From positions 1-36,480 of the IMG/VR virus record IMGVR_UViG_3300048836_000537: a stretch of 36,480 nucleotides of DNA; one strand, written 5' to 3'. Below, one piece after another: positions 2,074-25,872 of the stretch (the stretch's first letter is position 1; every line of letters begins with the position of its first letter). A program made the position numbers and the translations under genes. Origin of the DNA: a virus. Under the pieces are notes generated by a model that was given only the letters and a program-made list of their open reading frames with translations, ran no database searches and was not told where the DNA came from.

Positions 2074-2823
2074 TTATATTATGTAGCCGATCTGAATCGT
2101 AATGTAGGCAGTTGCAAGAATGCCTCCAGTCATCTGGTAAACTTTTACTTGCCCACTATCCTTGTCTATCGAGTACCTGAATAGGAAATCACTCGAGCTA
2201 TCAAAACATAGGCCTGAAAGGTAGGCGGTAGGCCTATAGCCAACTGGTATGGTGGCAAGCACAGTATTTTCACTTATGTTGGCTTTTACACTCAGCTCCA
2301 GTCTGGCAGTACGACCTCTTTTAAGTACAATTTGCCTATAAGCGTTGTTAGCCGGAATAATATTAGCACCGAGGGTAAGGTCTGCAATTGACTCAGAAAG
2401 GTCTGAAAGTCTTATAACGCTATCGCCTTGTAATGAAGTTATAGATTCGGGATCAGCTTGCACTGAGCATATGGCTTTCCTGATTTTGTATACTTGGCGT
2501 TCGAGCCCATCAAAAAATGTCTTACTTCCAGCAGCATCGTTTTGCTCCATGAAGTTCCAATATGTGGTCGTTACGCCAGCGGGAGTCGAGAAGTTATGAG
2601 GGAATACGTGCCAAATTTCACCATTATGATATATTGCTCCCTCGCTAACCGATGTGTAGTTGCCTTGCAACTGCAGCTGGCAGCCGTACAAGATTACGGA
2701 GTCGGATACACCAAGGCTCCTGCAGATGTCAGAAATGGCTAGCCTAACTGAATCATCAATAAACCTAAAGTCATCTAGGGCTAATGGAAATCCTCCATTG
2801 AAGTTTGTTTCAAACTTGTTCAT
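2074..2823 (-). CDS. Tail-fibre or baseplate-associated structural protein
   Basis: 249 aa, beginning MNKFETNFNGGFPLALDDFRF. The N-terminal 100 residues look like a mounting domain (several Gly/Tyr-rich strands, LYGCQLQLQGNYTSVSEGAIYHNGEIW), the middle is probably helical, and the C-terminus is beta-rich and ends in YITIQIGYII. It follows the gpI-like baseplate gene by one base and is the last structural gene of the late operon. This fits a fibre or fibre-adaptor protein, but there is no diagnostic motif and the call rests on position and composition. Confidence 0.45.
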   Translation of the reverse strand: MNKFETNFNGGFPLALDDFRFIDDSVRLAISDICRSLGVSDSVILYGCQLQLQGNYTSVSEGAIYHNGEIWHVFPHNFSTPAGVTTTYWNFMEQNDAAGSKTFFDGLERQVYKIRKAICSVQADPESITSLQGDSVIRLSDLSESIADLTLGANIIPANNAYRQIVLKRGRTARLELSVKANISENTVLATIPVGYRPTAYLSGLCFDSSSDFLFRYSIDKDSGQVKVYQMTGGILATAYITIQIGYII

Positions 2824-2824
2824 G

Positions 2825-3301
2825 TTAATAAGTTTTAATTAGAAATTGAAATCCCGCTGCCTTATGCTGGTCAATGAGGCTATACAGGTAATTATCATAG
2901 TTAAGGGTCGCTGGTACCCAAACCGTGAAGTCAAACCCGGTTCTCTCGCTTGAATTGTAAAGGGTGTTAGCGGTTGATGCCTCTGCAGAATTATAAAGAT
3001 ATACCGGCCTGTTCTCGTCAGTATTAAATATATAAAAAGGGTTTGCTCTCGAGGCATCAGTTATATAGATTTGTCGTGCGTCTCCATCATTAAACATAAC
3101 TTTATTCAGCATGAATTCCATGCTTCCTACTTGCCCGGAGACTGATGCCAGGAATATTCTGGACTCCTTGAATACTAGAAAATCATTATACAAGGAAACT
3201 AGCGGGGAGACAAGGGCATTAAGCCATGATAAAAATTTGGGTGACCTTAAAAACCAAGGTGTAAGCCCTTTGACAAGCTTACTAAAATCAAGATTATACA
3301 T
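2825..3301 (-). CDS. Baseplate protein, Mu gp48 / P2 gpI-like
   Basis: 158 aa. In Mu-type phages the gene directly after the baseplate J-like gene encodes the gp48/gpI protein that links baseplate and fibres; this gene overlaps the J-like gene by 8 bp. The N-terminus (LVKGLTPWFLRSPKFLSWLNALVSPLVSLYNDFLVF) resembles the helical start of that family, and the C-terminal FDFTVWVPATL...LIDQHKAAGFQF resembles its DUF2313-like end. Assignment is by order plus weak similarity. Confidence 0.55.
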   Translation of the reverse strand: MYNLDFSKLVKGLTPWFLRSPKFLSWLNALVSPLVSLYNDFLVFKESRIFLASVSGQVGSMEFMLNKVMFNDGDARQIYITDASRANPFYIFNTDENRPVYLYNSAEASTANTLYNSSERTGFDFTVWVPATLNYDNYLYSLIDQHKAAGFQFLIKTY

Positions 3302-4112
3302 GTGGATAATAATTTATACTTGTTGATAATGGAAATAAGGGGTCAATCTTGAAATAGCCGCTTTCGGGCACGTGGCTTAGCTCTATTTCCTCGTAAGGGT
3401 AGCTCTCGTATTTTTGCATTAATGAATATACCTGGCAATCCTGAACACCTTTTGTTTCCATTATTGCAGTTACAAGGGATGAACGTTTTAATCTCCCGTC
3501 AAATTGTAGGCTTTTAAGGTGGTTCAAGATAGATTCCTCGACGATTTTCTTACTATCAGTGATTTGTTCACCGCTTTGCTTTATGATTAGAGGATCATAA
3601 TAGATAGAAATATTCATCTTGAGCAAATTGGCTGGTGCGTTAACTATTCTTACAGGAGTTCCGGCGTATTTCATCTGTGCTATAAATGAACTAAAACTAT
3701 TTAGCTCAACAACAGATAATGGCTCAAGCTGCCCGTTAACGTCCTTTGCAACCTTGATAACAAGACCATCAGCCGCCTCCTTGACACTGCATTGCGATAT
3801 CAGGGGCATAACATCATTAATGGGGTAGCCAAGCCTACCATTTACGTTGGTTAGACTAACGCCTAGCTTGAAGCCAAGACAAATTTGCCTGTACCATATT
3901 AAGCTACCTGGCTTTTGAGAAGCAATAATCCCCTCGATTTCCGCCCTAAATAAATCCCACATAGTTTCTATAGTAAAAATGGCAGTGGCTGTAACGTATG
4001 CCCATAAACGCCAAATTGCCGTTACGCTTGTTGAGTCAAGGGCTGACAGCTCCGCTTTGGCCTCTTTAGCCAGGATTATTTCTGAATAAATTTTTTCAAT
4101 ACTTCTTGCCAT
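3294..4112 (-). CDS. Baseplate J-like protein (Mu gp47-type)
   Basis: 272 aa, the usual position and order for the wedge protein gp47/gpJ. It has an N-terminal helical region with WRLWAYVTATAIFTIE, a central domain with PVRIVNAPANLLKMNISIYYDP and a C-terminal part with LKSLQFDGRLKRSSLVTAIMETKGVQDC, typical of the J family repeat that asks for connector alignment. It is shorter than Mu gp47, as often seen in Bacteroidetes elements. It overlaps the next gene by 8 bp, consistent with coupled translation. Confidence 0.65.
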   Translation of the reverse strand: MARSIEKIYSEIILAKEAKAELSALDSTSVTAIWRLWAYVTATAIFTIETMWDLFRAEIEGIIASQKPGSLIWYRQICLGFKLGVSLTNVNGRLGYPINDVMPLISQCSVKEAADGLVIKVAKDVNGQLEPLSVVELNSFSSFIAQMKYAGTPVRIVNAPANLLKMNISIYYDPLIIKQSGEQITDSKKIVEESILNHLKSLQFDGRLKRSSLVTAIMETKGVQDCQVYSLMQKYESYPYEEIELSHVPESGYFKIDPLFPLSTSINYYPHV

Positions 4113-4179
4113 TACATACTGTTTTGATTACAATCTAAGAGGACGAGCCACTTTGGCAATCCCCAAGTTGAACTTATTT

Positions 4180-4587
4180 TTAACTTAAGATTTTAAATAA
4201 GACTGGATAATAATCTTCTGTTTCTACAAACTCTAGATCCGTCATTGATAAATTGCTGTATTCAATCTCCCTTTGGGTGTTCTGGAGGAAATCTTGTATC
4301 TTCTTTTCGAATTCCTTGTTTCTCTCGTCTTTAGGATTGCTAGTTATTTTCAAGATCTCTTCTTCAGTACCAAGTTCAGCCCTTAATTCAAGTAATGATT
4401 GATTGAAAAATTCACGATCTTTCTTTACTTGAGTATGGATATTTGAAAGATGATATTTAGTGCTTAATGGTAGCCTGTGTGTCAACAATCCCCTCATTCT
4501 TACTCCAAATTTGTCATGATATCCTGCGAGTTCAGCTTCTAATTCAAGTGATTCTCCAAGCGTGATAATTTTCTTTTTTGCTTCCAT
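4180..4587 (-). CDS. Unknown phage protein, DUF1617-like in layout
   Basis: 135 aa, charged and helical, beginning MEAKKKIITLGESLELEAEL with LLTHRLPLSTKYHLSNI near residue 40. The pattern of a short beta start, a Lys/Leu loop and long helices recalls small phage proteins such as DUF1617, but I cannot confirm it. It lies between the fibre genes and the baseplate J gene, with 67 bp separating it from the latter. It may be a fibre chaperone or minor structural protein. Confidence 0.4.
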   Translation of the reverse strand: MEAKKKIITLGESLELEAELAGYHDKFGVRMRGLLTHRLPLSTKYHLSNIHTQVKKDREFFNQSLLELRAELGTEEEILKITSNPKDERNKEFEKKIQDFLQNTQREIEYSNLSMTDLEFVETEDYYPVLFKILS

Positions 4588-4615
4588 ATAGTTTTTTGGT
4601 TGTTAATGATTTGAT

Positions 4616-5365
4616 TTATAAAACATCTAGTGCCTCAACCCACGCGCTTCCGTTCCAAGTGTAAACAGGACAACTAAACCATCCGTTGGTGTAGTATGCA
4701 TGCGCCTTGTAAACGACTGCTGGAGTATAGGTAATCTTCACCCATCCCCATGCACCATTCCCAGCTTGATCATAGCCAGTATTAACACCGCCACCGCCAC
4801 CGCCACCGTATGCATTACCATGCCCAGCCACTTCTGCGTATTGATGCCCATTTCCACCAGCACCGTTGTATGATGTACCTCCAGCACCGCCAGACGTGCC
4901 TAGCGCACCGGCACCCCCAGCGGAAGTCCAAGAGCCAGCGCCACCACCGCCACCGCCTCTAGCTGCGCCAGTCGTTCCAGAACCACCATTACCGCCATTT
5001 CGCAAGTACGTTCCTACGTTTGCTGTTGATGCTGTACCACCGCTTACATAATTCCCACCAGCACCACCTTTACCAACGCATAAGTTTGCACCGAAGATGC
5101 TGTCAGTTCCAGCCGAGCCAGCACCGTACGCTGTTGCGCCAGCACCACCACGTCCAACGGTTACGGTAAAGGATTGGCCAGGAGTTACAGCTATGCTTGT
5201 TTTCTTTGCATAGCCGCCACCAGCACCACCACCAGCACCCCTCACGTCATTAGCGGACATGCCTCCACCACCGCCACCGCCCAAGCATTCGACATCTATT
5301 GATGTAACCCCTGCTGGTACTACCCAAGTTTTGGATAAGGTTATTGTTTCTGTTGTTGTCGCCAT
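4616..5365 (-). CDS. Glycine-rich tail-tip/fibre protein
   Basis: 249 aa. After a short beta start (residues 1-30, with the VPAGVTSIDVECLGGGGGGG pattern typical of phage glycine-rich fibre-tip domains), residues 30-200 are dominated by Gly-Gly-Ala-Gly runs of the kind that form polyglycine sandwiches in fibre tips. The C-terminus contains NGWFSCPVYTWNGSAWVEA, a small module common at the ends of phage fibre proteins. It starts two bases after the stop of the histidine-repeat fibre gene, and the two are probably parts of one receptor-binding apparatus. Confidence 0.7.
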   Translation of the reverse strand: MATTTETITLSKTWVVPAGVTSIDVECLGGGGGGGMSANDVRGAGGGAGGGYAKKTSIAVTPGQSFTVTVGRGGAGATAYGAGSAGTDSIFGANLCVGKGGAGGNYVSGGTASTANVGTYLRNGGNGGSGTTGAARGGGGGGAGSWTSAGGAGALGTSGGAGGTSYNGAGGNGHQYAEVAGHGNAYGGGGGGGVNTGYDQAGNGAWGWVKITYTPAVVYKAHAYYTNGWFSCPVYTWNGSAWVEALDVL

Positions 5366-5367
5366 GA

Positions 5368-7185
5368 TTATACTGCTGTTTTAACCCAAACCATAGAAGT
5401 GTCGGCAGGTGCAGTTGTTCCCTTGTAAACCCTGCATGATGTATCACGAGATATCGCACCCGAAGCGTTTGCAACCAGTAATTGAGTGCCTGTACCCGAT
5501 AGCCCTGTTAATCCAGAATGCGTATGCGAACTCGGTGCGTAATCATGCGTATGTGAATTTGGTGCGTAAACTCCATCATGATTATGCGAACTTGATGCAT
5601 AAGGATGCGAATGGATTGGAGCGTAAACCGTATCATGATTGTGTGTATCTGATGCGTACGGATGCGTGTGGACTGGAGCATACACCCCGCTATGGTTGTG
5701 AGTATCCGAAGCATATGGATGCGAGTGAACTGGTGCATATACTCCATCGTGATTATGTGAACTAGGAGAATAATCGTGAGAGTGCGAATTTGGTGCATAT
5801 ACTCCACTATGATTATGCGTGTCAGATGCGTATGGGTGCGTGTGCGCTAATGCGTAGTTTGCAGGATTGAAATTCTTACTTGACCATAATACAGAAGGAG
5901 TGTAATTCTGACTAACAGTTCCGAAGCTTGTTGCAAAATTTATCGCCCATCCTGTAGCCCAATCTGCATCTATTCCAGCATGCCCACATAAAACTTCGTT
6001 TACATAAACTTGCGGATAAGTCCAAATTGTATTAGCTTCCCCAATCCAAATACATTCAGAAGTTCCATCATGCCCAAACCTTACATTGTAGGTTGTATCA
6101 TTACTGTCTGATGCTTGAGTAGCAAAAACATTATACCAAGTGTGATCTTGATAATTATAGCCACCAACTTCAAATGTTAAAGATTTACCAGTATTGTATT
6201 GGTAAACTTTTATTGTCATTCTAACCATTGTAGAACAACCATAAGTAGCTACAGGCAACTTAATTTTTATCGCTCCAGTTACAGATGAAGCATTGCTGAC
6301 GCTTGATGCTCCTACAGGGTTAACAATTCGAGTGAATCCAGAATCTGCCAAATAATTTGAATAATCTGCTCTACCACCGTTAGCAGTTCTAGCATTTGTT
6401 AATCTAGCATCGGTAGTATCAACAACTTGATTTCCATTGATAGTTACACTCTTGTCAGCCATAACACGCAATACTACATTCCCCTTTCCATCGCAGATGT
6501 AAGTGTTTGCACCTTCGCCTGTTGTAGCCCCATTATAATCTCTATAGTTGATATATAATGTTTTTCCACTACTACGCCCCCAAATTTCATTCCCACTACT
6601 AATACCTAAAACTGGAGTCATAAGCGAACCCGAAAATGATGCACCCGATGCTGAGAAATCGCCTTTTATTTTAAGGTTTCCATTATTAGAACTTAAAGCC
6701 ATTAATGGAGTAGGAGAATTAGTTACATCGTTATTTGTTGCCGCTTCCCATATCCAACCATATCCAGCCACATTCTCAATATTGTGCCTTATAGCCCAAC
6801 TTGTTACATCACCGTATTGAGTAACTACCTTGCCATTTGGCGCATTATGAGCAGGACTGCACATGTAATCATACCATGTTGTCATTGAAGGGTTATACCA
6901 GCTTATGCCTCTTGATTGTCCGCTAGGTGCTGATGAAGTGTTTATTTGTAGAAGCCCAGCTAATGATAAAGAGTTGACCGCAAGATTACTGTTAACCGTT
7001 CCTCCAGATTTTGGCATATAGCTCGCTGGATCGAAGATTACGATTGATTGAGTTGTTCCATCGTTTTTCTTGATAAACATTCTACCATCCCTTGAGTTGA
7101 TAAGGATTTCTCCTTCAACTAGGTCGGTAGTGGCTGGTACTCTACCAGCCACCGCAGTTGTTTTATGCTTGATCTTGTTTGCCAT
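5368..7185 (-). CDS. Tail fibre with HxH histidine repeats
   Basis: 605 aa. The N-terminus (MANKIKHKTTAVAGRVPATTDLVEGEILIN) is a short attachment module also seen in the next gene. The middle is beta-rich. Residues about 447-556 carry twelve HxH motifs in repeats of the type YASDTHNHSGVYAPVHTHP, the pattern of metal-binding trimeric fibres such as T4 gp12. The last 50 residues, with VYKGTTAPADTSMVWVKTAV, resemble a C-terminal fibre module. It is a receptor-binding or intermediate fibre. The HNH triplets here are part of the repeats and not a nuclease. Confidence 0.75.
   Translation of the reverse strand: MANKIKHKTTAVAGRVPATTDLVEGEILINSRDGRMFIKKNDGTTQSIVIFDPASYMPKSGGTVNSNLAVNSLSLAGLLQINTSSAPSGQSRGISWYNPSMTTWYDYMCSPAHNAPNGKVVTQYGDVTSWAIRHNIENVAGYGWIWEAATNNDVTNSPTPLMALSSNNGNLKIKGDFSASGASFSGSLMTPVLGISSGNEIWGRSSGKTLYINYRDYNGATTGEGANTYICDGKGNVVLRVMADKSVTINGNQVVDTTDARLTNARTANGGRADYSNYLADSGFTRIVNPVGASSVSNASSVTGAIKIKLPVATYGCSTMVRMTIKVYQYNTGKSLTFEVGGYNYQDHTWYNVFATQASDSNDTTYNVRFGHDGTSECIWIGEANTIWTYPQVYVNEVLCGHAGIDADWATGWAINFATSFGTVSQNYTPSVLWSSKNFNPANYALAHTHPYASDTHNHSGVYAPNSHSHDYSPSSHNHDGVYAPVHSHPYASDTHNHSGVYAPVHTHPYASDTHNHDTVYAPIHSHPYASSSHNHDGVYAPNSHTHDYAPSSHTHSGLTGLSGTGTQLLVANASGAISRDTSCRVYKGTTAPADTSMVWVKTAV
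5510..5850 (-). repeat. Internal DNA repeats encoding HxH units
   Basis: The segment of the fibre gene consists of related tandem units encoding Y-A-S/P-x-x-H-x-H-x. Copies such as gatgcgta(t/c)gg(a)tgcg and gcatatactccatc recur several times with few changes. Such repeats can change copy number by recombination and so alter fibre length. Confidence 0.6.
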
Positions 7186-7199
7186 AATTTGTTGATAAA

Positions 7200-8225
7200 T
7201 TAGAATGAACCACCATCAATAATGGCATTCTTTACGAGGTCGTTAATTGTTGCTCTTTTCTGGGTAACCTCTGAGTTGTCATAATAGGGAACATAATCTG
7301 CCGCCGCATCAGCAGCCGCATCAACTGAAAGTCCACTGATATCTAATCCTACCCATAGCTCTTGGCTTGTAGCGGAAATGTTTATTCCCTGCGAGCTGCG
7401 AACGGTTTGATTTAAATATCCGGGTGTTCCACCTGCCTGCGTTTGCACCTTGTACATACCAAGCTGTGAAATAAAATCTGTTTTTAAAATCTTCTTGTTT
7501 CGCGCTGCTCCCAAGGCCGCTGAATCGATAAATATTATATAATCAGATTCATTCAAGGTCGACGAGGCCGTTAATTCACTCAAATTAAGGTCGACTGAAT
7601 TCCCTGTTATATCAACTCCGCTACCTCCAATGTAAGTTGACGAACCGGCGAACTGAACAAAATTGATATTGCTGGTTCCTAGAGAAATGTTATCAGTTGA
7701 GCATACCCAAGCTGTTTCACTATATGTTACTCCTTCGCTAACAAAAACCGCGGCATTAAGAAGCTCGGCCGCGCTGTCAGCATCAGATGAACGTACCCAT
7801 GCGCCAGTTTTAACAACATAGATACCGTTAGTCTTACTGTCGGCCTGATACTTGAGTAAAACACGATCATTAACGGCAAGATCAATTCCATCAATTGATT
7901 GTAGCCCTGATGCAGTTATATTAAATACTGACACAACTCTGACTGGATCTTTCCATTTTAAACCCGCTATGAGCTGATCAACCTCAACCTTTGAATAAAC
8001 ACTTAGGTTCGATCTTGCGCTTGCTTTATCAGGCACATCTGCTAGGTTCTGGTCTTTTCTCATGTAATCGGCAATGGCACCAGCATTGAACAGCTTTATT
8101 TTAACTGTTGCCGTTTGGCATATATACAAATCACCGGTATCAGTGGCAAAAAGAAATTCCCCGGGGTTTAACCCGGTTGTCGGTAAATTAGCGGCTAGCC
8201 CTCGCCTTACTTTAATTATACTCAT
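7200..8225 (-). CDS. Tail fibre / appendage protein with N-terminal attachment module
   Basis: 341 aa. Residues 1-45 (MSIIKVRRGLAANLPTTGLN, PGEFLFATDTGDLYIC) form the N-terminal module found in many phage fibres and in major tropism determinants. Residues about 95-190 contain a repeat common in phage fibres: KDPVRVVSVFNI, IDGIDLAVNDRVLLKYQ, NGIYVVKTGAWVRSSDAD. The C-terminal half is low in motifs. It is the first of three consecutive fibre-type genes. It may form the shaft to which the downstream fibres attach. Confidence 0.7.
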   Translation of the reverse strand: MSIIKVRRGLAANLPTTGLNPGEFLFATDTGDLYICQTATVKIKLFNAGAIADYMRKDQNLADVPDKASARSNLSVYSKVEVDQLIAGLKWKDPVRVVSVFNITASGLQSIDGIDLAVNDRVLLKYQADSKTNGIYVVKTGAWVRSSDADSAAELLNAAVFVSEGVTYSETAWVCSTDNISLGTSNINFVQFAGSSTYIGGSGVDITGNSVDLNLSELTASSTLNESDYIIFIDSAALGAARNKKILKTDFISQLGMYKVQTQAGGTPGYLNQTVRSSQGINISATSQELWVGLDISGLSVDAAADAAADYVPYYDNSEVTQKRATINDLVKNAIIDGGSF

Positions 8226-8727: not shown

Positions 8728-9179
8728 TTAATCCAGCGTGTTAATATTTTTAGTCCAACGGACATGAGCAAGATCACCCACAATATTGCTCCCGACCATA
8801 CTAGAAAGAGTTGGAAACCGCTCAATCTTTTTTCAACTTCGTATGGGGCGGGAACAGGAATATCCTTATACACCAAGCTATCTTTAGTCTTGACGTATAA
8901 AGTGTCATGCATGTACTTCGTCTTGTATTGAAATTGGCCATTGCTGAGTTCAATAAAGCTCTTTATATTATTTCCTTTTACTTCAGAAAGCGCCTTTAAA
9001 TAGACATTATTGAGCGAGTCACAGGCAAACAAGGCCGTCAGGAGTGAGCTATCGGCCGGAATCGGCACGGGAATTAATCTTTCCGTCACCACCGTGCTTG
9101 ATTTCATTAATGGAAGTGATTTACGAGAGCAGCCGGATATAACGATCAGCCCAATTATTAAAAGAAATATTTTTTTCAT
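8724..9179 (-). CDS. Probable unimolecular spanin (lipoprotein with C-terminal membrane anchor)
   Basis: 151 aa. It begins with a lipoprotein signal, MKKIFLLIIGLIVISGCSRK, with the lipobox Cys at residue 17, and ends with a single strongly hydrophobic segment (about 122-147) followed by RWIK. A protein anchored in the outer membrane by lipid and in the inner membrane by a C-terminal helix is the arrangement of u-spanins such as T1 gp11, which join the two membranes at the last step of lysis. It lies directly after the coiled-coil and endolysin genes, with 4-bp overlaps. Confidence 0.6.
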   Translation of the reverse strand: MKKIFLLIIGLIVISGCSRKSLPLMKSSTVVTERLIPVPIPADSSLLTALFACDSLNNVYLKALSEVKGNNIKSFIELSNGQFQYKTKYMHDTLYVKTKDSLVYKDIPVPAPYEVEKRLSGFQLFLVWSGAILWVILLMSVGLKILTRWIK

Positions 9180-17326: not shown

Positions 17327-18340
17327 TTAAACTTGGGGTGAGTATATTGCGCCTAGCATTTTATCCCGGAAGGGTAGCGCAACAAATCGTTTTTGGAAGT
17401 TTATAACATCGCCCTTTTGATCAGGATCTTTATATTTTGCAAATACGTCTACATCACCGTCAGCTCGCATTACTTCATCACGGCTCCAGATGATTGAAGC
17501 TGGAGTGTCAGTAGGTAGGGCAATAGCTTGGAATGGCACTTTTACACCTGTTTGTGCGTTCCATCTTGGTGTTTGGCTATTAGTAAAGTAGGTCATTCCC
17601 CATAATTTACCTGAAGCAAGCATCTCCTTGTAAAGCTTCATATCTTGGGCAAGTAAGTCAGCCTCATGAAGAGGGTTAAGCATTATCGCCAGAGCCGCTA
17701 TATCCACGTCAAGAGCAACAAACTTGGCTCTAATGGCTAGTATATCTTCGAAAGTAAGTAACCTTCTACCATTTTTTAAATCACCGGTAGCCGTTAAAAC
17801 TGGAGTGTTCGGGCCATCTTGAGTTGGTGCCCAGAAATGAGCGGCCAATTGTATAGAGCCTTTACGCAATGTGTTTCTATGCCCTCTAACCACTGATTCC
17901 ATTTTGTTATAGGAAGATTCCATTTCCTCTAAATTTCTAACTATGGTGCTATCAGTATCAAGGGTTCTCAAAACGATAGTTTTAGGAAGGTCTACACGTT
18001 GGGTCGAGTTAATAGGGTATACGGCGTTATCTATAAGTAAATTGGGGTCAACTCCTGCCTCTGCCAAGTTCAAGGTGTTATACTCTACCAGTTCGCTCAT
18101 GTCTCTACTCCATGCAAGAAAATCACCATTTGGGTAATATCCTTCCATCAGGATATCAGTCCAAATTTCCTTTTGAATTCCAGCAAACAAGGTATTTGCT
18201 TTAGGTTGGTAACTCATCAGGTGGCCAGCCACCAGGGAACCGGCGGCAACCGGCAGTGCGGCTAGTGAAAAGACCGTTGAAATAAGCAAGGCAACCACCA
18301 TGTTAAATAGCGCGTTACCGACATTGAATTGTTTTCTCAT
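17327..18340 (-). CDS. Major capsid protein
   Basis: 337 aa, after the prohead protease/scaffold gene, as in all HK97-fold phages. Motifs of Bacteroidetes Mu-like capsids are FAGIQKEIWTDILMEGYYP, DMSELVEYNTLNLAEAGVDP and ITFEDILAIRAKF-like LTFEDILAIRAKFVALDVDI. Unusually, residues 12-41 are strongly hydrophobic and look like a signal or membrane segment (NMVVALLISTVFSLAALPVA). This could be removed by the protease, or the true start could be Met42 (MSYQPKANTLF). A strong hairpin follows the gene. Confidence 0.75.
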   Translation of the reverse strand: MRKQFNVGNALFNMVVALLISTVFSLAALPVAAGSLVAGHLMSYQPKANTLFAGIQKEIWTDILMEGYYPNGDFLAWSRDMSELVEYNTLNLAEAGVDPNLLIDNAVYPINSTQRVDLPKTIVLRTLDTDSTIVRNLEEMESSYNKMESVVRGHRNTLRKGSIQLAAHFWAPTQDGPNTPVLTATGDLKNGRRLLTFEDILAIRAKFVALDVDIAALAIMLNPLHEADLLAQDMKLYKEMLASGKLWGMTYFTNSQTPRWNAQTGVKVPFQAIALPTDTPASIIWSRDEVMRADGDVDVFAKYKDPDQKGDVINFQKRFVALPFRDKMLGAIYSPQV

Positions 18341-18407
18341 AATTCTGAAAAGATTTGTTTAATGAAAAGTTTTGATTTTTTAACTGATCCTTTTTTAAAG
18401 AGCCCAG

Positions 18408-19352
18408 TTAGCTCTTTGCCTTGTAAGACTTCCTGAGTGATTCAAATTTCTCTGGGTCTTCAACTTTTAAAGCTGCAAGCTCAGCCGGGGCTTCCTTCAG
18501 ATAGCGCATGTAATCCCACCCCTCGCGGTCTGGAGCGCTAGAGCCAGCTGCTTTAATTTTCCCGCTTAAAGATGTTTTAGGCGCCATCGAGTCGAGCAGG
18601 TCTTTTGCTTGCTTAAAATCAGCTGTTGCAAGTTTCTCAAAGCTTTCTTTTTTGTCAGCGGTGATTCTACCTTCCTTTATGGCTAGATCAACGAGTTCCT
18701 TCGCTTGATTAGCCTTCATGGCTTGCAGATCATTTTCCGCTTTTTCTTTAGCGCTATTGGCTTTAATTAGATTTGCGCTCATCTCCATGATGGCTGCATT
18801 TAAATCCGTTTCTTCCGGATTTTTTCCTAAGCCGAGGGCTTTTGCAGCCTCGACGGAAAGAGTCACTTTCTCCATTTGTACTTTTGATTTGATGATGTTT
18901 TCAATTGATAGCTTTATTTCCTCCGCTTTAAGACTAGTATGACTACCATCCCTGGCGTAAAGCTTTAATGATGCCTTGTTGGAAGGAATAGCAACCGGGG
19001 ATGCTTCTAAAAGCTCCCACTCGGTTACAACAGGAATATTGCCAAGCCCCGGCACGTTTCTAAACTCGGCGTCATCAATATAAATTCCCATTGAAACGCC
19101 CTTTAAATACCCCCTGTCTACCTTGCCGCTAATTTTTTTAGCATCAGGATCATCGGTATCAAATTCCGAGTCAGCGATAAGCTTGGAGCCGTCTATACGA
19201 AGTTCGTTCCACTTACCAATAACGCAACGGTCATCATGCGAATCAAGCATGACCGGGTTAGCCCTGAACCTGTCAAATTTCCCACCGGAATTCAATATCA
19301 CGAAGCCGTGTGAGGTTATAACATTTTCGTCATTCAGAATGAAATCAGCCAT
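18408..19352 (-). CDS. Prohead protease fused to scaffold
   Basis: 314 aa from the ATG at 19352. A TTG at 19376 would add 8 residues but lies inside the -7 box of the promoter, so I reject it. Residues 1-130 are a prohead protease: catalytic-type His39 in LDSHDDR and Ser87 in LKGVSMGI. Residues about 150-260 are coiled-coil scaffold (MEMSANLIKANSAKEKAENDL), ending with a linker and charged tail. It is first gene of the leftward late operon; the protease would mature the capsid and itself. Confidence 0.75.
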   Translation of the reverse strand: MADFILNDENVITSHGFVILNSGGKFDRFRANPVMLDSHDDRCVIGKWNELRIDGSKLIADSEFDTDDPDAKKISGKVDRGYLKGVSMGIYIDDAEFRNVPGLGNIPVVTEWELLEASPVAIPSNKASLKLYARDGSHTSLKAEEIKLSIENIIKSKVQMEKVTLSVEAAKALGLGKNPEETDLNAAIMEMSANLIKANSAKEKAENDLQAMKANQAKELVDLAIKEGRITADKKESFEKLATADFKQAKDLLDSMAPKTSLSGKIKAAGSSAPDREGWDYMRYLKEAPAELAALKVEDPEKFESLRKSYKAKS

Positions 19353-19373
19353 TTTTTTGAATTGTTGAGAGGG

Positions 19374-19405
19374 CAAACATACTTCGCACGTTACTCCATT
19401 CCAAA
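19374..19405 (-). promoter_or_regulatory. Promoter of the leftward late operon
   Basis: Read on the minus strand: TTTG (19402-19405), 20 bp, TATGTTTG (19374-19381). This is a full match to the Bacteroidetes housekeeping consensus. Transcription would begin near 19367, giving a leader of about 15 nt before the ATG at 19352. No comparable box was found for the + direction in this divergent region. Confidence 0.65.
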
Positions 19406-19504: not shown

Positions 19505-19981
19505 ATGGCAAAAACTACCGTTGTTCAGACTCGTAACCCTGAAAAGTACGAGTACGCTTACCTTTTATACATGCAGGGAGTTGCACAAGGTGACATCTGT
19601 AAACGCGTTGGCATATCAGCCCCCACGCTTGTATCATGGAAGGACTCAGGAGGTTGGGAAGAGAAACGAGCCGCCAGAACAATTAGCATCGATGATCTCA
19701 TGCACAAAAGCTTGAAAATGATCAATGGCATGCTTGATGGCGAGTACAAGAACTTTAACGCCGATTCATTCGCTAAAGCGGTTGCGCAGTTAAAAACCCT
19801 CAAGAGCTCAAATACAATTGATGATGATATTAATGCTTTCATGGGTTTTCAAGACTATTTAATTCGTGAGCGTGCCAATTCCAAGCTGATAACTGACCAG
19901 TTTATAAAGACTCTCACGGCCTTGCAAGATTCTTACATTCAACTAAGACTAGGAGCGAATGGGAAATATTCGGGTAAGTAA
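19505..19981 (+). CDS. Terminase small subunit-like DNA-binding protein (Mu gp27-like)
   Basis: 158 aa from ATG 19505; the frame is open from 19481 but the first 8 residues overlap what should be leader. Residues about 20-50 form a helix-turn-helix (YMQGVAQGDICKRVGISAPTLVSWKDSGGW) typical of small terminase and gp27-like proteins. The rest is helical (FAKAVAQLKTLKSSNTIDDD). It overlaps the large terminase by 23 bp, as packaging genes usually do. It recognises phage DNA ends for packaging. Confidence 0.7.
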   Translation: MAKTTVVQTRNPEKYEYAYLLYMQGVAQGDICKRVGISAPTLVSWKDSGGWEEKRAARTISIDDLMHKSLKMINGMLDGEYKNFNADSFAKAVAQLKTLKSSNTIDDDINAFMGFQDYLIRERANSKLITDQFIKTLTALQDSYIQLRLGANGKYSGK

Positions 19982-21470
19982 GGAGACTCATTACAGGTGG
20001 CAGGAGCGTGTCCAGTGGCTATTATCTGAAACGTTCTCCTTCCCGGAGTCCGAGCATGAAAAGGAAAAGCGAATTGAACGGGCAAGGAAAGATTACCCTT
20101 TCTTTGTTGAAACTTACTTTCCACATCTGGCAACAAAGAAGTGCGCCAAATTTCATATTGATGCTGCCAAGTACCTTCTGGAGCATGATAATACCAGGGC
20201 TTTATTTGAATGGGCTAGAGGCCATGCCAAGAGCTCGCATTTAAGTTTATTAATTCCGCTTTGGCTGAAGATTCAGAAGCCTCGTAAAATATCCGTTATG
20301 GTACTCGTGAGTAAAAGCCAGGACATGGCCGTCCGGCTTCTCTCTGACCTGCAAGCGGAGCTACAATATAATCATGCTTTTATTAGTGACTTTGGGGAGC
20401 AGGTTAAAACAGGATCCTGGACCGAGGGAGAATTCAGGACAGTTGATGGATGCCTATTTGTAGCACTCGGGCGAGGCCAATCGCCTCGAGGCTTAAAGGA
20501 TAGGGGTAAAAGACCAGACTATATAGTCATTGATGACATCGATGATGATGAAATAATTGAAAACCCGAAACGTGTAGGCAAAGCTTTGCAGTGGGTTCTC
20601 ACCGCTCTTTCCGGCACGATGGCAATGGGAAGAGGTCGCTTTGTAATGGTAGGCAACAGGATAGGAAAGGACAGCATACTTTCTAGATACGCCCTTCAGA
20701 ATAATGTACATCGCACGGTTGTTAACGCTCTCGATAAAAACGGCGAACCTTCATGGAAGGAGAATTACACCGCCCTCGAAATTAAAGAAATGAGGGAATT
20801 TGTAGGAGAGCGAAATTTCCAGAAGGAGTACATGAATAACCCAATAAACGAGGGTACAGTGTTTCAGGAGAAGCATATTCGTTATGGGAAAATGCTTGAT
20901 TTAAAGTTTTACAAAACGCTCATTTGCTATACTGACCCTTCTTTTAAAAACTCGGCGACATCAGACTACAAGGCCACCATGCTTGTTGGCAAAACCCCTG
21001 AGGGCGTATTCCATGTAATCAAAGCTTATGCAGATCAAACATCGGTCACCAACATGGTAGCCTGGCATTACACTATATGGGATTACGTGGATGGAAAGGT
21101 TCCCGTGCTATATAACATGGAATCTAATTTTCTCCAGGATTTACTGCTGGATGAGTTTAAGACAGTCGGGCAAATAACAGGTCATCAAATACCCATCAGG
21201 GGGGACGCTCGAAAAAAGCCAGACAAGTTTGCCCGGATAGAGGCAATGTCGCCTCTATTTGAAAGAGGGCTAGTTGTATTTAACGAGAAAGAGAAAGACT
21301 CCCTGGGCATGATTACCCTCAAGGATCAGCTGCTAATGTTTGAAAAAGGCAGTAGGAGCCATGACGACGCCCCGGATGCGTTAGAAGGAGCTATCTGGTT
21401 GCTGAGTAAGCGCGGCAGAAATGCAAGTTCAACATATAAAGTTGGTCGAAGGACTTCACGTCAATTCTAA
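19959..21470 (+). CDS. Terminase large subunit (Mu gp28-like)
   Basis: 503 aa. The ATPase domain has a Walker A-type segment RGHAKSSH (87-94) and Walker B YIVIDDID (188-195). The C-terminal RNase H-like nuclease includes CYTDPSF (Asp326) and a final acidic HDDAPDALEG near residue 473. These are the packaging motor and headful nuclease of Mu-type phages. All key residues look intact. Confidence 0.85.
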   Translation: MGNIRVSKETHYRWQERVQWLLSETFSFPESEHEKEKRIERARKDYPFFVETYFPHLATKKCAKFHIDAAKYLLEHDNTRALFEWARGHAKSSHLSLLIPLWLKIQKPRKISVMVLVSKSQDMAVRLLSDLQAELQYNHAFISDFGEQVKTGSWTEGEFRTVDGCLFVALGRGQSPRGLKDRGKRPDYIVIDDIDDDEIIENPKRVGKALQWVLTALSGTMAMGRGRFVMVGNRIGKDSILSRYALQNNVHRTVVNALDKNGEPSWKENYTALEIKEMREFVGERNFQKEYMNNPINEGTVFQEKHIRYGKMLDLKFYKTLICYTDPSFKNSATSDYKATMLVGKTPEGVFHVIKAYADQTSVTNMVAWHYTIWDYVDGKVPVLYNMESNFLQDLLLDEFKTVGQITGHQIPIRGDARKKPDKFARIEAMSPLFERGLVVFNEKEKDSLGMITLKDQLLMFEKGSRSHDDAPDALEGAIWLLSKRGRNASSTYKVGRRTSRQF

Positions 21471-21782: not shown

Positions 21783-22247
21783 ATGTTTTTGACCACCGAG
21801 GAGTTAAGTACCGTAATCTATGAATACCAGCTTCAGGAAATTACGGAATCACAACCTGACATTCCAACCTTGGCAATTAGCGCTGCCATAGAGGAAATGA
21901 AATCATATTTAAACCCATCCTCTCAGCTTCGGTGGCGAGACGGCCGCCCAAGGTATGATATTGCAGCAATTTTCGGGGCGCAGGGCATTGAGCGAAACGC
22001 GCTTGTACTCGAGCTTGCAAAAAGTATCGCTTTATACTACGTGTGCAGGTTAGCAAACGTGGACATTATTCAAGAAAAAGTTGTCGAGAGGTATGACCGG
22101 GCAATTGAATGGCTAGAAAAGGTATGTGGCGTTGGAAAGTACGCTAACGCTCCAAGCATCTCTCCTGACTTGCCTTTACTGGTAGATCAAGAGCCGCCAC
22201 AAGCCTTCAGGTTTGGAAGCAGGGAAAAATTTAATCATGACTTTTAA
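21783..22247 (+). CDS. DUF1320-like head-tail connector (Mu gp36-like)
   Basis: 154 aa. The N-terminal MFLTTEELSTVIYEYQLQEIT and the middle ALVLELAKSIALYYVCRLANVDIIQEKVVERYDRAIEWLEKV match the DUF1320 pattern seen in Mu gp36. That protein sits at the neck between portal and tail. In Mu it is encoded after the capsid; here it sits with the packaging genes on the opposite arm. The C-terminal 25 residues are Pro-rich. Confidence 0.65.
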   Translation: MFLTTEELSTVIYEYQLQEITESQPDIPTLAISAAIEEMKSYLNPSSQLRWRDGRPRYDIAAIFGAQGIERNALVLELAKSIALYYVCRLANVDIIQEKVVERYDRAIEWLEKVCGVGKYANAPSISPDLPLLVDQEPPQAFRFGSREKFNHDF

Positions 22248-22249
22248 AG

Positions 22250-23455
22250 ATGAAACAGAGAAAGAAACAGTTACTGGCGGCAAATGCCGTCAAGGAACCG
22301 ACTACTAAAAGGCGTGCAGATGGCTACGCCGCCAAAATTGCGCCTAAAAGTATTAGCAGGACAAGGCAAGATATAGCAACATGGAAGGCCGCTTTAAAAC
22401 AAGCCGAGAATGTTGACAATCCGAAACGGGTTCTATTGCACAAACTATACAAAGATATAGGCATTGATGCGCTGCTTACCTCCCAGCTGGGAAAGAGAAT
22501 AAGGAAAAGTAGTTCTGCAAATTTCGTGCTCAAAAAAGGTGATGTAATAGATGAGAATTCGACGGCATTGTTTAAAAAGGCCTCATGGAGGAAGAAGCTG
22601 TTTAGGATAATTGTTGAGTCTGATTTTTTTGGTGCCACATTAGTTGAGTTCATAACGGATAAAAATGGTAGTTTAAAAATGGTTGTATTACCTCGGCAGA
22701 ATATTATACCTGAAAAGGGGCTACTATTATTTGATGAAACTGCAACAACAGGTATTGACTACAGGAGCGTTAAGGAATACGAGACATGGGTTCTTGAATT
22801 TGGCGAGCCTGATGACCTAGGGCTCCTAAACAAGGCAGTTCCTCATGTTTTATTTAAACGTTTCGCTCAATCTTGCTGGAGCGAACTTTGCGAAATATAC
22901 GGGATTCCACCAAGAGTCATGAAGACTAACACTCAAGACCCGGCAATGCTATCTAGGTCTGAGCAAATGATGAAAGACATGGGTGCAGCCGCTTGGTTTA
23001 TAATTGATGAAACTGAGGAATTCGAGTTTGCAAAAGGCGCTGATACAAACGGTGACGTTTATAACAACTTGATTAGGCTCTGTAACAACGAGCTTTCCCT
23101 ATTACTCTCGGGGGCAGTGATTGGGCAGGATACCAAGAACGGCAATGAAAGCAAAGAGAAAATAAGCGTGGAACAGCTCGAGGGGCTTATTGATGCTGAT
23201 AAAACTCTTATAGAGGAGTACATGAACTCCCTCGTTCTGCCGGCTCTTTACAAGATTGGCTTTTTACCTGAAGGGCTAACATTTACTTTCGAGGCCTCGG
23301 AAAACACCGAGGAACTCTACACCAGAGTAATAGGTTTCCTGGAGTATTTTGATATTGACTCGGATTGGCTAAACGAGAAATTCGGTATAAAGATTATAGG
23401 CAAGAAGGAGCCAGCCGGAAAGGCAAATTTTCAGCAAGCCCCGGAGGAAGAATAG
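22250..23455 (+). CDS. Portal protein (DUF935, Mu gp29-like)
   Basis: 401 aa. Portal features: KRIRKSSSANFVLKKGD, TALFKKASWRKKLFRIIVESDFFGATLVEF, SCWSELCEIYGIPPRVMKTN and SLLLSGAVIGQDTKNGNESKEKISVEQLEGL, all typical of DUF935 portals. It is shorter than Mu gp29 (about 500 aa), as often in Bacteroidetes phages. It follows the gp36-like gene by 2 bp and is followed by the MuF protein, the conserved pair. Confidence 0.8.
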   Translation: MKQRKKQLLAANAVKEPTTKRRADGYAAKIAPKSISRTRQDIATWKAALKQAENVDNPKRVLLHKLYKDIGIDALLTSQLGKRIRKSSSANFVLKKGDVIDENSTALFKKASWRKKLFRIIVESDFFGATLVEFITDKNGSLKMVVLPRQNIIPEKGLLLFDETATTGIDYRSVKEYETWVLEFGEPDDLGLLNKAVPHVLFKRFAQSCWSELCEIYGIPPRVMKTNTQDPAMLSRSEQMMKDMGAAAWFIIDETEEFEFAKGADTNGDVYNNLIRLCNNELSLLLSGAVIGQDTKNGNESKEKISVEQLEGLIDADKTLIEEYMNSLVLPALYKIGFLPEGLTFTFEASENTEELYTRVIGFLEYFDIDSDWLNEKFGIKIIGKKEPAGKANFQQAPEEE

Positions 23456-25008
23456 GCACACGGCTTTCGGGGCTATACAAAACTACCAGGTGTGATTGCT
23501 GCGGAGAGCCTATGCTATTGGCCGAGAAAGCCCCAAAATTCAGCAAGGCCGTTTTTACAAGAGCTATGGAGCATTTACATAAAAGGGGCTTTTACGCCAC
23601 TGAAATGTTAAATGAAGCTCCGTTTAAAGCAGTTTTAAAGGAAACGGAAAAGCTATTTAACAGGGCGGTTCAGGAGGGTATTCAAGATAATGACGTTCCG
23701 GAAGAAATGCTCAGGAAATTACAGGATGATATTTTTGTATTCTCGGGTTTAAAGACCCACGCCCAGCTTAAAGAAGCCGCTAAAATGTTGCTTACCCCTG
23801 ATAGCAAGGTAAAGTCCTTTAATACATTTAGGCAGGAGGTGGAAGGATTACACCAGGCCTATAATGTTAATTATCTTGAGGCTGAGTATGTTTTCGCTAC
23901 CTCGAGCGCACAAATGGCGGCACATTGGTCTGACTACGCCAAGGACGGCGACAGGTATAACCTCCAATATCGTACTGCCGGTGACAGCAGGGTAAGAGAC
24001 TCCCACGCCGCTTTAGCTTATGTAACCTTGCCTGTAGACGACCCCTTCTGGAATGAATACTTCGCCCCAAACGGGTGGAGATGCCGGTGCAAGGTTGTAC
24101 AGGTTAGAAAGGGTAAATATCCAGAGTCGAATTCTGAGGAGGCAATTGAAGCCGGTATTAAAGCAACAACGAGGATTGACAAGGATGGTAATAACTCTGA
24201 TGCTATTTTCAGGTTTAACCCCGGTAAGCAACAAGTAATTTTCCCGCCCAAGCACCCTTATCGCGATTCAAACAAGCATGTCGAAAAGGTCTTGAAACAA
24301 ATTGACAATACTAGGGAAAGTGTAATTAAACAAGAAATTTCAAGCCTTAGCGATCTTAATGTTGTAGTGGCTGATTACGCTAAATTACGCCCTGAGATGT
24401 TTGCTCATGGCTTTAAAAGTCTGTCTTATGAGACACGGCCAAATGCTAACGGGGCGACTGACAGGAGGGGAAATATTTTCCTTAAAAGGGACAGGGTTGA
24501 TAACGTGATAGTCGGATTAAACAATATCAGGCAAGGCCAAAAGACCACCTATGCCCAGGAGGATGCGCTTGCCACGCTATGGCACGAGATCACTCACAAC
24601 GCAAACGGAAAACCTGATTATCTTACCGATCTCGAGAGAAGAAGGATGGAGCTATCTAACGAGTTTGTTGCCAGGAAAACTTTTGGCTTGTTCATGAATG
24701 ACCTTGGAGGCGAGTTGCAGAATAAATCATTCAAGACCGACAGGCCATCAACTGGATATAATGAGTGGGTTAAAAAATATGATGCTCTTGTAAAGTTTAC
24801 TAAAGCGGATGAAACGAAAGTGCTAAATGATGTTAGAACTCATTTGTTTAATGAATCTTACAAAGAGCAAACCACGGGACTTATTAATGCCATTACAAAC
24901 AATTCAGAAACATTCAAGGCGTCAAAAGTCAAGAAGGCTGTTATCTTCTGTACTGATCCATCAATGAGATTAAGTGATTTTGAAAATTGGTTAACCCGGG
25001 AGGATTAA
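23365..25008 (+). CDS. MuF/SPP1-gp7 minor head protein with C-terminal HExxH domain
   Basis: 547 aa from the first possible start, a TTG overlapping the portal by 91 bp; the first ATG is at 23512 (499 aa). Between them the frame encodes RCDCCGEP, so the start is uncertain. The MuF domain has YRTAGDSRVRDSHAAL (202-217) and VDDPFWNEYFAPNGWRCRCK (224-243). After a linker, a second domain contains LWHEITH (HExxH 407-411) and NEFVARKTFGLF (Glu433 as possible third zinc ligand). MuF proteins with variable C-terminal enzyme domains are known as phage polymorphic toxins. The protein would be carried in the virion and may be delivered. Confidence 0.75.
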   Translation: MAKREIRYKDYRQEGASRKGKFSASPGGRIGTRLSGLYKTTRCDCCGEPMLLAEKAPKFSKAVFTRAMEHLHKRGFYATEMLNEAPFKAVLKETEKLFNRAVQEGIQDNDVPEEMLRKLQDDIFVFSGLKTHAQLKEAAKMLLTPDSKVKSFNTFRQEVEGLHQAYNVNYLEAEYVFATSSAQMAAHWSDYAKDGDRYNLQYRTAGDSRVRDSHAALAYVTLPVDDPFWNEYFAPNGWRCRCKVVQVRKGKYPESNSEEAIEAGIKATTRIDKDGNNSDAIFRFNPGKQQVIFPPKHPYRDSNKHVEKVLKQIDNTRESVIKQEISSLSDLNVVVADYAKLRPEMFAHGFKSLSYETRPNANGATDRRGNIFLKRDRVDNVIVGLNNIRQGQKTTYAQEDALATLWHEITHNANGKPDYLTDLERRRMELSNEFVARKTFGLFMNDLGGELQNKSFKTDRPSTGYNEWVKKYDALVKFTKADETKVLNDVRTHLFNESYKEQTTGLINAITNNSETFKASKVKKAVIFCTDPSMRLSDFENWLTRED

Positions 25009-25020
25009 AGGTAAGATGTA

Positions 25021-25263
25021 CTATTCATTAAATATAGCGGTCAGCTCTTTTTCAAAAAGCTTCCTGAGTCTTTCTAAAGAGGCTTTATCAGACTTGTATT
25101 CAGCCCATGCCAGTAAACTGAACATTTTACTAGCGTCATTCCAGCTTTCAGCTTCTTTTAGCTCAAATGTATCATCTTGCAAGGCAGCCCGCAATTCTTG
25201 CAGGTTGTCTGTAAAATCAAGTATACTGGCTTTTTTAAGCTGTTCGTCTGTTAGCTCTTTCAC
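25021..25263 (-). CDS. Small acidic protein opposite the head operon, with own promoter
   Basis: 80 aa from GTG 25263, VKELTDEQLKKASILDFTDN to LFEKELTAIFNE; acidic and predicted fully helical. It lies 12 bp behind the stop of the MuF-HExxH gene, on the other strand, and carries a consensus promoter 24-56 bp upstream. No homologue is recognised. The alternative + strand frame over the same DNA is Ser/Leu-rich, looks like a shadow, and has no promoter. Position and own promoter suggest a prophage-expressed gene, possibly an immunity protein for the upstream enzyme domain. Confidence 0.6.
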   Translation of the reverse strand: MKELTDEQLKKASILDFTDNLQELRAALQDDTFELKEAESWNDASKMFSLLAWAEYKSDKASLERLRKLFEKELTAIFNE

Positions 25264-25287
25264 CTGCTTTAGCGTTGTTTAATCCCA

Positions 25288-25319
25288 CAAATATACACTA
25301 GAAAAGCCCTGATTCCAAA
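25288..25319 (-). promoter_or_regulatory. Consensus promoter of the small antisense gene
   Basis: Minus strand: TTTG (25316-25319), 20 bp, TATATTTG (25288-25295), a full match to the Bacteroidetes consensus. Start of transcription near 25281, about 18 nt before the GTG. It fires against the + strand head operon. Confidence 0.7.
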
Positions 25320-25323
25320 TAAT

Positions 25324-25872
25324 ATGTATAAGAATTTTATTCATGACGTTTTAAAAGATATCAAGGTTGAGCTTACTGATGAGTTTGATTTAAACTTTGA
25401 AAGGAAAGCTTTCTTTGACCAGCCTTGGCCTGAGACCAAATGGCCTAATAGGAAAGGTAGCCTTATGATGCGTTCCGGCGCTTTAAGAAGAAGCATCAGG
25501 GCGAGGTTAACAAATAATGAGCTTGTATTTTCAAGCTCCGTGCCATATGCGAAAATTCAAAATGAAGGGGGAGCTATTGTTATAACCGCCAAGATGAAAA
25601 AATTCTTCTGGGCGATGTATTACCGGTTAAGTGGCAGTTTAACTTATAGCATAAAAAGTAGGGATGTTAGCAACACTAAACGAAACAAGAAATTTACCAT
25701 CGAAGCCGAATACTGGAAGGCTTTAGCGCTTAAAAAAGTTGGCTCCCGGCTATACATTAAACCTAGGCCTTTCCTCGGGCATCATCGTCAAGTGGACGGC
25801 CTGATAAGACGAGTAATAGATGACAATTTTAAAACCGCCGCTAACGAATTTAAAAATAATTTAAAACCATGA
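25324..25872 (+). CDS. Phage virion morphogenesis protein (Mu gpG-like)
   Basis: 182 aa. The sequence MRSGALRRSIRARLTNNELVFSSSVPYAKIQNEGGAI is the hallmark of the virion morphogenesis / tail completion family (gpG, gpS, gp10-like): strip of Arg/Ser, then the YAxxHNxG-like YAKIQNEGG. The C-terminal RPFLGHHRQVDGLIRRVI is also typical. It acts at head completion or tail joining. It is overlapped by the next gene (4 bp). Confidence 0.75.
   Translation: MYKNFIHDVLKDIKVELTDEFDLNFERKAFFDQPWPETKWPNRKGSLMMRSGALRRSIRARLTNNELVFSSSVPYAKIQNEGGAIVITAKMKKFFWAMYYRLSGSLTYSIKSRDVSNTKRNKKFTIEAEYWKALALKKVGSRLYIKPRPFLGHHRQVDGLIRRVIDDNFKTAANEFKNNLKP

Follow-up and report, generated by a model that had tools for sequence, protein, structure and literature searches.

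A candidate toxin-immunity cassette at the end of the MuF minor head protein gene of a Mu-like Bacteroidota phage

The IMG/VR virus record IMGVR_UViG_3300048836_000537, analysed at its full length of 36,480 bases (the window), comes from a Mu-like phage of Bacteroidota and carries a Mu-like head module in which the MuF minor head protein gene is followed by a small gene on the opposite strand. The MuF open reading frame (ORF; 23365-25008, + strand) encodes 547 amino acids from a TTG start. Its core (amino acids 1-299; 23365-24261, +) matches Pfam Phage_Mu_F (PF04233) at amino acids 153-244 (E 3.8e-13) and NCBIfam phageSPP1_gp7 (E 2e-12), and this N-terminal MuF domain sits in the head module between portal and neck gene. 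The C-terminal 248 amino acids (24262-25008, +) form a gluzincin-like HExxH domain, the proposed toxin, with the zinc-binding motif HEITH at amino acids 407-411 (24583-24597, +) and, in the sequence MEL(A/S)NEFVAR, Glu429 (24649-24651, +) as the proposed third zinc ligand of an HExxH-x17-E arrangement. Directly behind, convergent with the MuF gene and ending 12 nucleotides from its stop, lies an ORF with a GTG start (25021-25263, -) for an acidic protein of 80 amino acids (isoelectric point 4.7), the proposed immunity protein. A Bacteroidota-type promoter, TTTG-N20-TATATTTG, precedes this ORF by sequence match (25288-25319, -, read 25319-25288). A first-pass annotation had described the MuF and zinc-binding motifs, the acidic antisense protein and its host-type promoter, and had read them as a possible toxin-immunity pair; the features are where it placed them, and the reading is weighed below.

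His407, Glu408, His411 and Glu429 are unchanged across 22 relatives that are 24-54% identical to the window domain, and in the cluster of 22 distinct members the His-Glu-x-x-His motif, a Met-Glu pair, an Asn, a Phe and an Arg are all invariant. The AlphaFold2 model of the domain is confident, with a predicted local distance difference test score (pLDDT) of 91.9 and a predicted template-modelling score of 0.87. Structural comparison with VIA-align gave 19 rows with Z of at least 5, nearly all gluzincin metallopeptidases (DPP III, LasB, aureolysin), the best being 3cia (Z 7.9, root-mean-square deviation 4.5, 192 residues). Considering the HExxH-x17-E arrangement together with this structural similarity, a gluzincin-type protease is the likeliest reading, and the domain is probably a zinc protease. 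Its relatives surfaced only through a search with the portal protein; tblastn of the domain against the phage collection and single-sequence peptide-pattern scans for it in genome and viral contigs returned nothing.

Portal relatives of the window are present in many bacterial genome contigs, and its MuF core is 41-60% identical to the cores of portal-related phages with the gene order portal-MuF-tailS. The portal relatives found in contigs of viruses and bacteria yielded 191 MuF cores, a number that includes copies of one contig, and their C-termini are bimodal: the protein either ends 10-24 amino acids past the core or carries 120-314 extra amino acids, giving 97 distinct extensions. The HExxH domain is missing in the cargo-free relatives, where the next structural gene follows about 0 nucleotides from the MuF stop; with HExxH cargo the gap is 219-343 nucleotides (819 in one case). 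Elsewhere unrelated domains take its place. These cargo classes are mutually unrelated and comprise two zincins, an ADP-ribosyltransferase (ADPrib_exo_Tox, 8.5e-12), a glutamine deamidase (Gln_amidase, 5.8e-13), a weakly matched GNAT acetyltransferase, and nucleases of the LPD3 (1.3e-15), PBECR2 (3.6e-7) and CdiA_C types, the last with weak matches of 7.3e-7 to 9.5e-4. Comparison of relatives shows the C-terminal HExxH domain to behave as an optional, swappable module.

Two further observations concern the cargo position. In Flavobacterium phage FPSV-S1 (L469), an annotated site-specific DNA methylase (3211-4125, +) lies directly behind the gene matching MuF, at the place of the cargo cassette in other phages. 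The second zincin class, c2, has an antisense ORF partner in only 5 of 10 loci, and in some loci is followed by a small Cys-rich protein (CxxC...C(N/D)AFP) encoded on the sense strand in L008 (region 6133-7484) and L026 (8238-8435, +) and antisense in L107 (about 8747-8965, -); these three proteins are homologous.

The small antisense ORF of the window has a homologue at the same place in locus L049, with 46% identity and proportions of synonymous and nonsynonymous differences (pS and pN) of 0.80 and 0.33, and therefore represents a real protein. Among antisense ORFs of the relatives, pS is 0.57-0.88 and pN 0.15-0.34 in most pairs, with dN/dS of 0.15-0.29 where computable. Sequence comparison thus shows the small antisense gene, like the HExxH domain, to evolve under purifying selection. 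The window protein is predicted with confidence as an all-helical, six-helix fold (pLDDT 91.9); Foldseek against the PDB gave no significant match, and searches of Pfam, PHROG and NCBIfam gave no family. In the other non-nuclease cargo classes, too, a small antisense ORF specific to the class ends at the toxin stop.

The HExxH family consists of two subfamilies, each with its own family of antisense small proteins at the MuF stop. Family I includes the window protein and those of L049, L057, L067, L068, L072, L082, L105, L111, L182 and L189; family II includes those of L040, L060, L080, L098, L106, L110, L174, L178 and L195. When every ORF of the first 197 loci was searched with hidden Markov models of the two families, family I matched at the slot only and behind toxin subfamily I only, including L159 and L161, which had not been used for the model (2.8e-14), and family II likewise matched at the slot only and behind subfamily II only. 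The first-pass annotation had suggested asking whether C-terminal domain and small gene vary together in relatives. They do, without cross matches, and a constant HExxH domain beside a varying small gene was not encountered. Toxins with partners of the same immunity family are 46% identical, and those with partners of different families 25%. MuF cores are 53.4% identical within and 52.6% between the groups, and the pairing thus cannot be predicted from the phage backbone. The distances of toxins and of their partners are correlated (Mantel r of 0.71 with p 2e-4 and of 0.69 with p 0.01), and with correction for the MuF core the partial values are 0.38 (p 0.006) and 0.62 (p 0.017).

The same pairing was seen in a second sample, for which viral contigs were scanned with the HExxH alignment alone, yielding 71 deduplicated loci with enough downstream sequence, about nine of whose contigs were already in the training set. 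A family I or family II gene lies directly at the stop in 65 of the 71, and both together in none; in L333 the family I partner is on the sense strand. The rest include weak relatives of families I and II in L332 and L363, and antisense ORFs in L372 and L374 that by eye resemble that of L363. The pairing is kept in 20 of 23 loci with a different N-terminal head protein, to which the core model does not match.

TTTG/TAnnTTTG is the consensus of the primary sigma factor of Bacteroides (PMC7366714), and the window promoter matches it. The pattern TTTG-N17-23-TAnnTTTG has only four matches in the whole window on both strands. Among 90 distinct cargo-bearing loci, the strict promoter is found antisense in 25 (shuffles mean 0.6, maximum 4) and on the plus strand in 0, and the TAnnTTTG (-7) box antisense in 76 (shuffles 13.1) and on the plus strand in 3. 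The 42 cargo-free loci have 0 strict promoters and 4 boxes. This enrichment, specific to the place behind a cargo, predicts transcription of the partner by the host's polymerase, separately from the late operon, as immunity in a lysogen demands. Across relatives, the comparison shows the HExxH domain travelling together with its cognate antisense small gene, for which a host-type promoter of its own is predicted.

Considering the exclusive pairing, the swappable cargo and the signs of selection, comparative genomics lends good support to the toxin-immunity reading, and we propose, with a probability of roughly 0.8, that the MuF gene of this phage has had a toxin-immunity cassette inserted at its end. 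The pairing of toxin and partner and the immunity role of the latter appear highly probable from the comparison of genes. By analogy with MuF biology (PMC5576092, PMC11699363, PMC5512222), delivery by the virion seems somewhat more likely than not, and toxicity with neutralisation by binding may be expected. In the simplest scenario, the MuF part would give the protein a site at the portal or inside the capsid, from where it would enter the recipient together with the DNA, and the HExxH zinc protease would cleave a host protein so that the recipient is slowed or killed. With the primary sigma factor of the host, the antisense gene would be transcribed apart from the late operon, and lysogens would constantly make the helical acidic protein, which would bind and block the protease. 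Lysogens would thereby be protected against leaky expression of the late genes and against sibling virions that infect them, and non-lysogens would not.

Several results weigh against this proposal. Foldseek of the HExxH domain against the PDB and the viral BFVD gave no match at E < 0.001 and all VIA-align Z values were below 8, so the fold assignment amounts to the motif together with a weak likeness in structure. Some co-evolution also links the MuF core to the pair (r of 0.65 and 0.78 between core and immunity protein), and shared ancestry thus accounts for part of the toxin-partner correlation. Family I is divergent, with 16-46% identity to the window protein. Finally, a temperate lifestyle is suggested by the Mu-like head genes (portal, gp36, MuF), and Pfam recognised no transposase or integrase in the window among the ten proteins scanned.

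Alternatively, the HExxH domain may be an assembly or processing peptidase that cleaves MuF, the portal or other injected proteins, with the antisense protein as a regulator or inhibitor of morphogenesis. Zincin-like peptidases of polyvalent phage proteins have indeed been proposed to process the polypeptide (PMC5512222), and an inhibitor would co-vary with its peptidase as well. However, a large proportion of the relatives do without the domain although their head module is intact, and others have at this position an ADP-ribosyltransferase, a deamidase or a nuclease, enzymes with no part in head processing. The partner, moreover, has its own host-type promoter outside the late operon. Considering also that the window has a separate prohead protease gene (18408-19376, -, by Pfam/profile search), we regard a processing role as unlikely. 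The small gene could also be a moron, an unrelated gene for lysogenic conversion that uses the same insertion point. Its own promoter and accessory position would suit such a gene, but each HExxH subfamily has one partner family to itself, whatever the backbone or the type of head protein and even in the sense-strand case, which makes this very improbable. Nor was any clear orphan copy found in 395 Bacteroidota genomes, although that search has little power because the toxin itself is present in only 1-2 of them.

Closer to the toxin-immunity cassette is the possibility that the HExxH domain is an injected effector that helps infection by inactivating a host defence or reprogramming the host, with the antisense protein limiting it in the lysogen and harm to competitors not being its purpose. 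This differs from the proposed cassette in purpose, not in parts, and the anatomy would be identical. Head-delivered phage effectors such as T4 Alt are known (PMC5512222), and MuF proteases of low toxicity have been proposed to steer lysis and lysogeny (PMC5576092). The class-specific, swappable immunity looks instead like that of antagonism systems, and we consider an infection-helping role possible but on the doubtful side.

Unlike the other cargo classes, the nucleases mostly lack an antisense ORF, and the space from toxin stop to next gene is typically about 100 nucleotides. An antisense ORF is present in 37 of 42 non-nuclease loci versus 8 of 45 nuclease loci (p 2e-11), whereas a promoter box 30-140 nucleotides from the stop is present in 3 of 42 and 40 of 45, respectively (p 1e-15). 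In the nuclease slot the same kind of antisense promoter is followed by a hairpin and an intrinsic terminator, giving predicted structured RNAs of 45-80 nucleotides that are specific to the toxin class (L384-L461, L009-L194). RNA type tracks toxin type, also at loci collected by toxin alone, and for 98 distinct RNAs the more stable fold is that of the antisense strand in 85 and of the sense strand in 13 (p 4e-14; z versus shuffles -4.2). Rfam at the gathering threshold gave no family in ten small RNA loci, and ARAGORN ruled out complete tRNAs. A simple rule of one RNA for every nuclease is broken by the 8 of 45 nuclease loci with an antisense ORF of at least 55 amino acids near the stop, some of which may be chance ORFs.

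The LPD3-class RNA has a 5-bp stem with a 7-nucleotide loop, mostly UUGUAGU, inside a long closing stem. Over 14 sequences, the 5-bp stem shows 95.7% pairing, 15 compensatory cells and a covariation of 0.578 (0 of 500 shuffles; slid versions at most 0.21). A covariance model of these 14 RNAs matched the slots of L037 (6.8e-5), L108 (0.0035) and L059 (0.11), all unused in training, and over 461 kb had no match at E < 1 outside LPD3-class loci, these E-values being rough. When the LPD3 consensus, GGAUUGUAGUUCC, was compared with about 54 distinct anticodon-arm cores of four host genomes, it agreed with tRNA-His at 12 of 13 positions and with the runner-up at 10; the RNA arm reads GGA-UUGUAGU-UCC and that of host tRNA-His GGA-UUGUGGU-UCC. 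A strict tRNA-arm pattern fits 25 of the 42 RNAs of the LPD3 class, among which several stem from duplicates of one contig, and many of the others break outer pairs only. The covariance model also places two copies of the LPD3-class RNA in L428, at 2563-2635 and 2762-2833 (-), about 200 nucleotides apart, and the RNAs of L431 and L437 have two anticodon-arm-like hairpins each.

These features of relatives, not of the window, suggest RNA immunity by tRNA mimicry. The antisense slot could be a general immunity slot, holding proteins for protease, ADP-ribosyltransferase, deamidase and acetyltransferase toxins and structured RNAs as decoys of nuclease substrates, with an anticodon nuclease binding the tRNA-His-like stem-loop in the LPD3 case; we see about even odds for this generalisation. 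The mimicry calls to mind colicin E5, a toxin that cleaves tRNAs carrying GU at positions 34-35. The slot RNAs might instead mainly silence the toxin mRNA by antisense pairing, but this is less likely, as the conserved hairpins are located past the toxin stop and combine a fixed loop with covarying stems, features that antisense pairing would not need. The window's own slot holds a conserved protein-coding gene rather than a type III RNA antitoxin, and Rfam gave no family in the window.

The rest of the head module is of the kind found in Mu-like phages. The terminase (19959-21470) and a gp36-like gene (21783-22247) are followed by the portal protein gene (Portal_Mu/DUF935; 22250-23455, +; PF06074, 8.7e-64), which the start of the MuF gene overlaps by 91 nucleotides. 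Downstream of the cassette lies the virion morphogenesis/Neck1 gene (25324-25872, +; PHROG Neck1, 6.3e-10), which is next after MuF when no cargo is present; its Phage_tail_S match is weak (3.5e-4, under the curated cut-off). The prohead protease and a major-head-like gene are on the minus strand (17327-19405), divergent from terminase-portal-MuF, with a Bacteroidota-type promoter match ahead of the prohead protease (19405, -). The late genes of the window thus seem to be split over two strands.

MuF toxins are widespread and few have been studied, and the present comparison provides a large set of matched toxin-immunity pairs from Bacteroidota phages, along with a simple rule for finding immunity genes: antisense, self-promoted and convergent with the MuF stop. 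The two zincin-immunity families lack library annotation, and the same layout occurs in a cultured Hankyphage. If the RNA slots are immunity elements, the antidotes of polymorphic toxin systems would include RNAs besides proteins, and the RNA loop would hint at the tRNA that the toxin cuts; no report of RNA immunity for MuF toxins was found in the open literature, subscription papers and preprints aside. The kind of system is known; new are the zincin class of Bacteroidota and its two families of partners, the rule that the partner gene is antisense and self-promoted, and a candidate slot for RNA.

The closest precedent is the MuF toxins of temperate phages described by Jamet et al. (2017), which like the window protein combine an N-terminal MuF head domain with a variable C-terminal toxin (a metallopeptidase in 20%) and a small adjacent putative immunity ORF (PMC5576092). 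Those are from Firmicutes phages, whereas here Mu-like Bacteroidota phages have antisense immunity genes with host-type promoters, two zincin-immunity pairings, and RNA elements with nuclease cargos. Bxa of Bacteroides stercoris, a MuF-ADP-ribosyltransferase whose antibacterial activity is neutralised by the adjacent Bsi and BAH (Alexei et al. 2024, PMC11699363), shares with the window a Bacteroidota prophage MuF toxin with adjacent small genes, and has homologues with other toxin domains. However, it is not a zincin, and its paper mentions neither antisense orientation nor RNA partners (PMC11699363). The cultured Hankyphage p00 (BK010646, L463) has, like the window, a MuF protein with a toxin domain, an antisense ORF at the stop and Neck1, an arrangement unremarked in its annotation. 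Its MuF-Gln_amidase gene (3040-4479, +) and the gene for an antisense hypothetical protein (4462-4761, -), homologous to the antisense ORF of L056, overlap at the stop by 18 nucleotides. Unlike in the window, the toxin is a Gln_amidase and the antisense protein belongs to an unrelated family. Type III toxin-antitoxin systems (ToxIN) resemble the nuclease sister cassettes only, in that an RNA adjoins a ribonuclease toxin; the cassettes differ from ToxIN in having a single antisense RNA, downstream and convergent, with its own promoter, other toxin folds and a tRNA-arm-like hairpin, and the window itself has a protein partner. Finally, gluzincins (M1 aminopeptidases, M4 thermolysin-like enzymes and DPP III) share with the window domain the HExxH motif, the downstream Glu and a helical C-terminal subdomain; the window domain differs in its lack of a significant sequence or Foldseek match, its HExxH-x17-E spacing, its length of 248 amino acids and its fusion to MuF. 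In this comparison, the window falls among the known MuF polymorphic toxins, in a branch from Bacteroidota whose proposed toxin is an uncharacterised domain of gluzincin type and whose proposed immunity gene is antisense and self-promoted.

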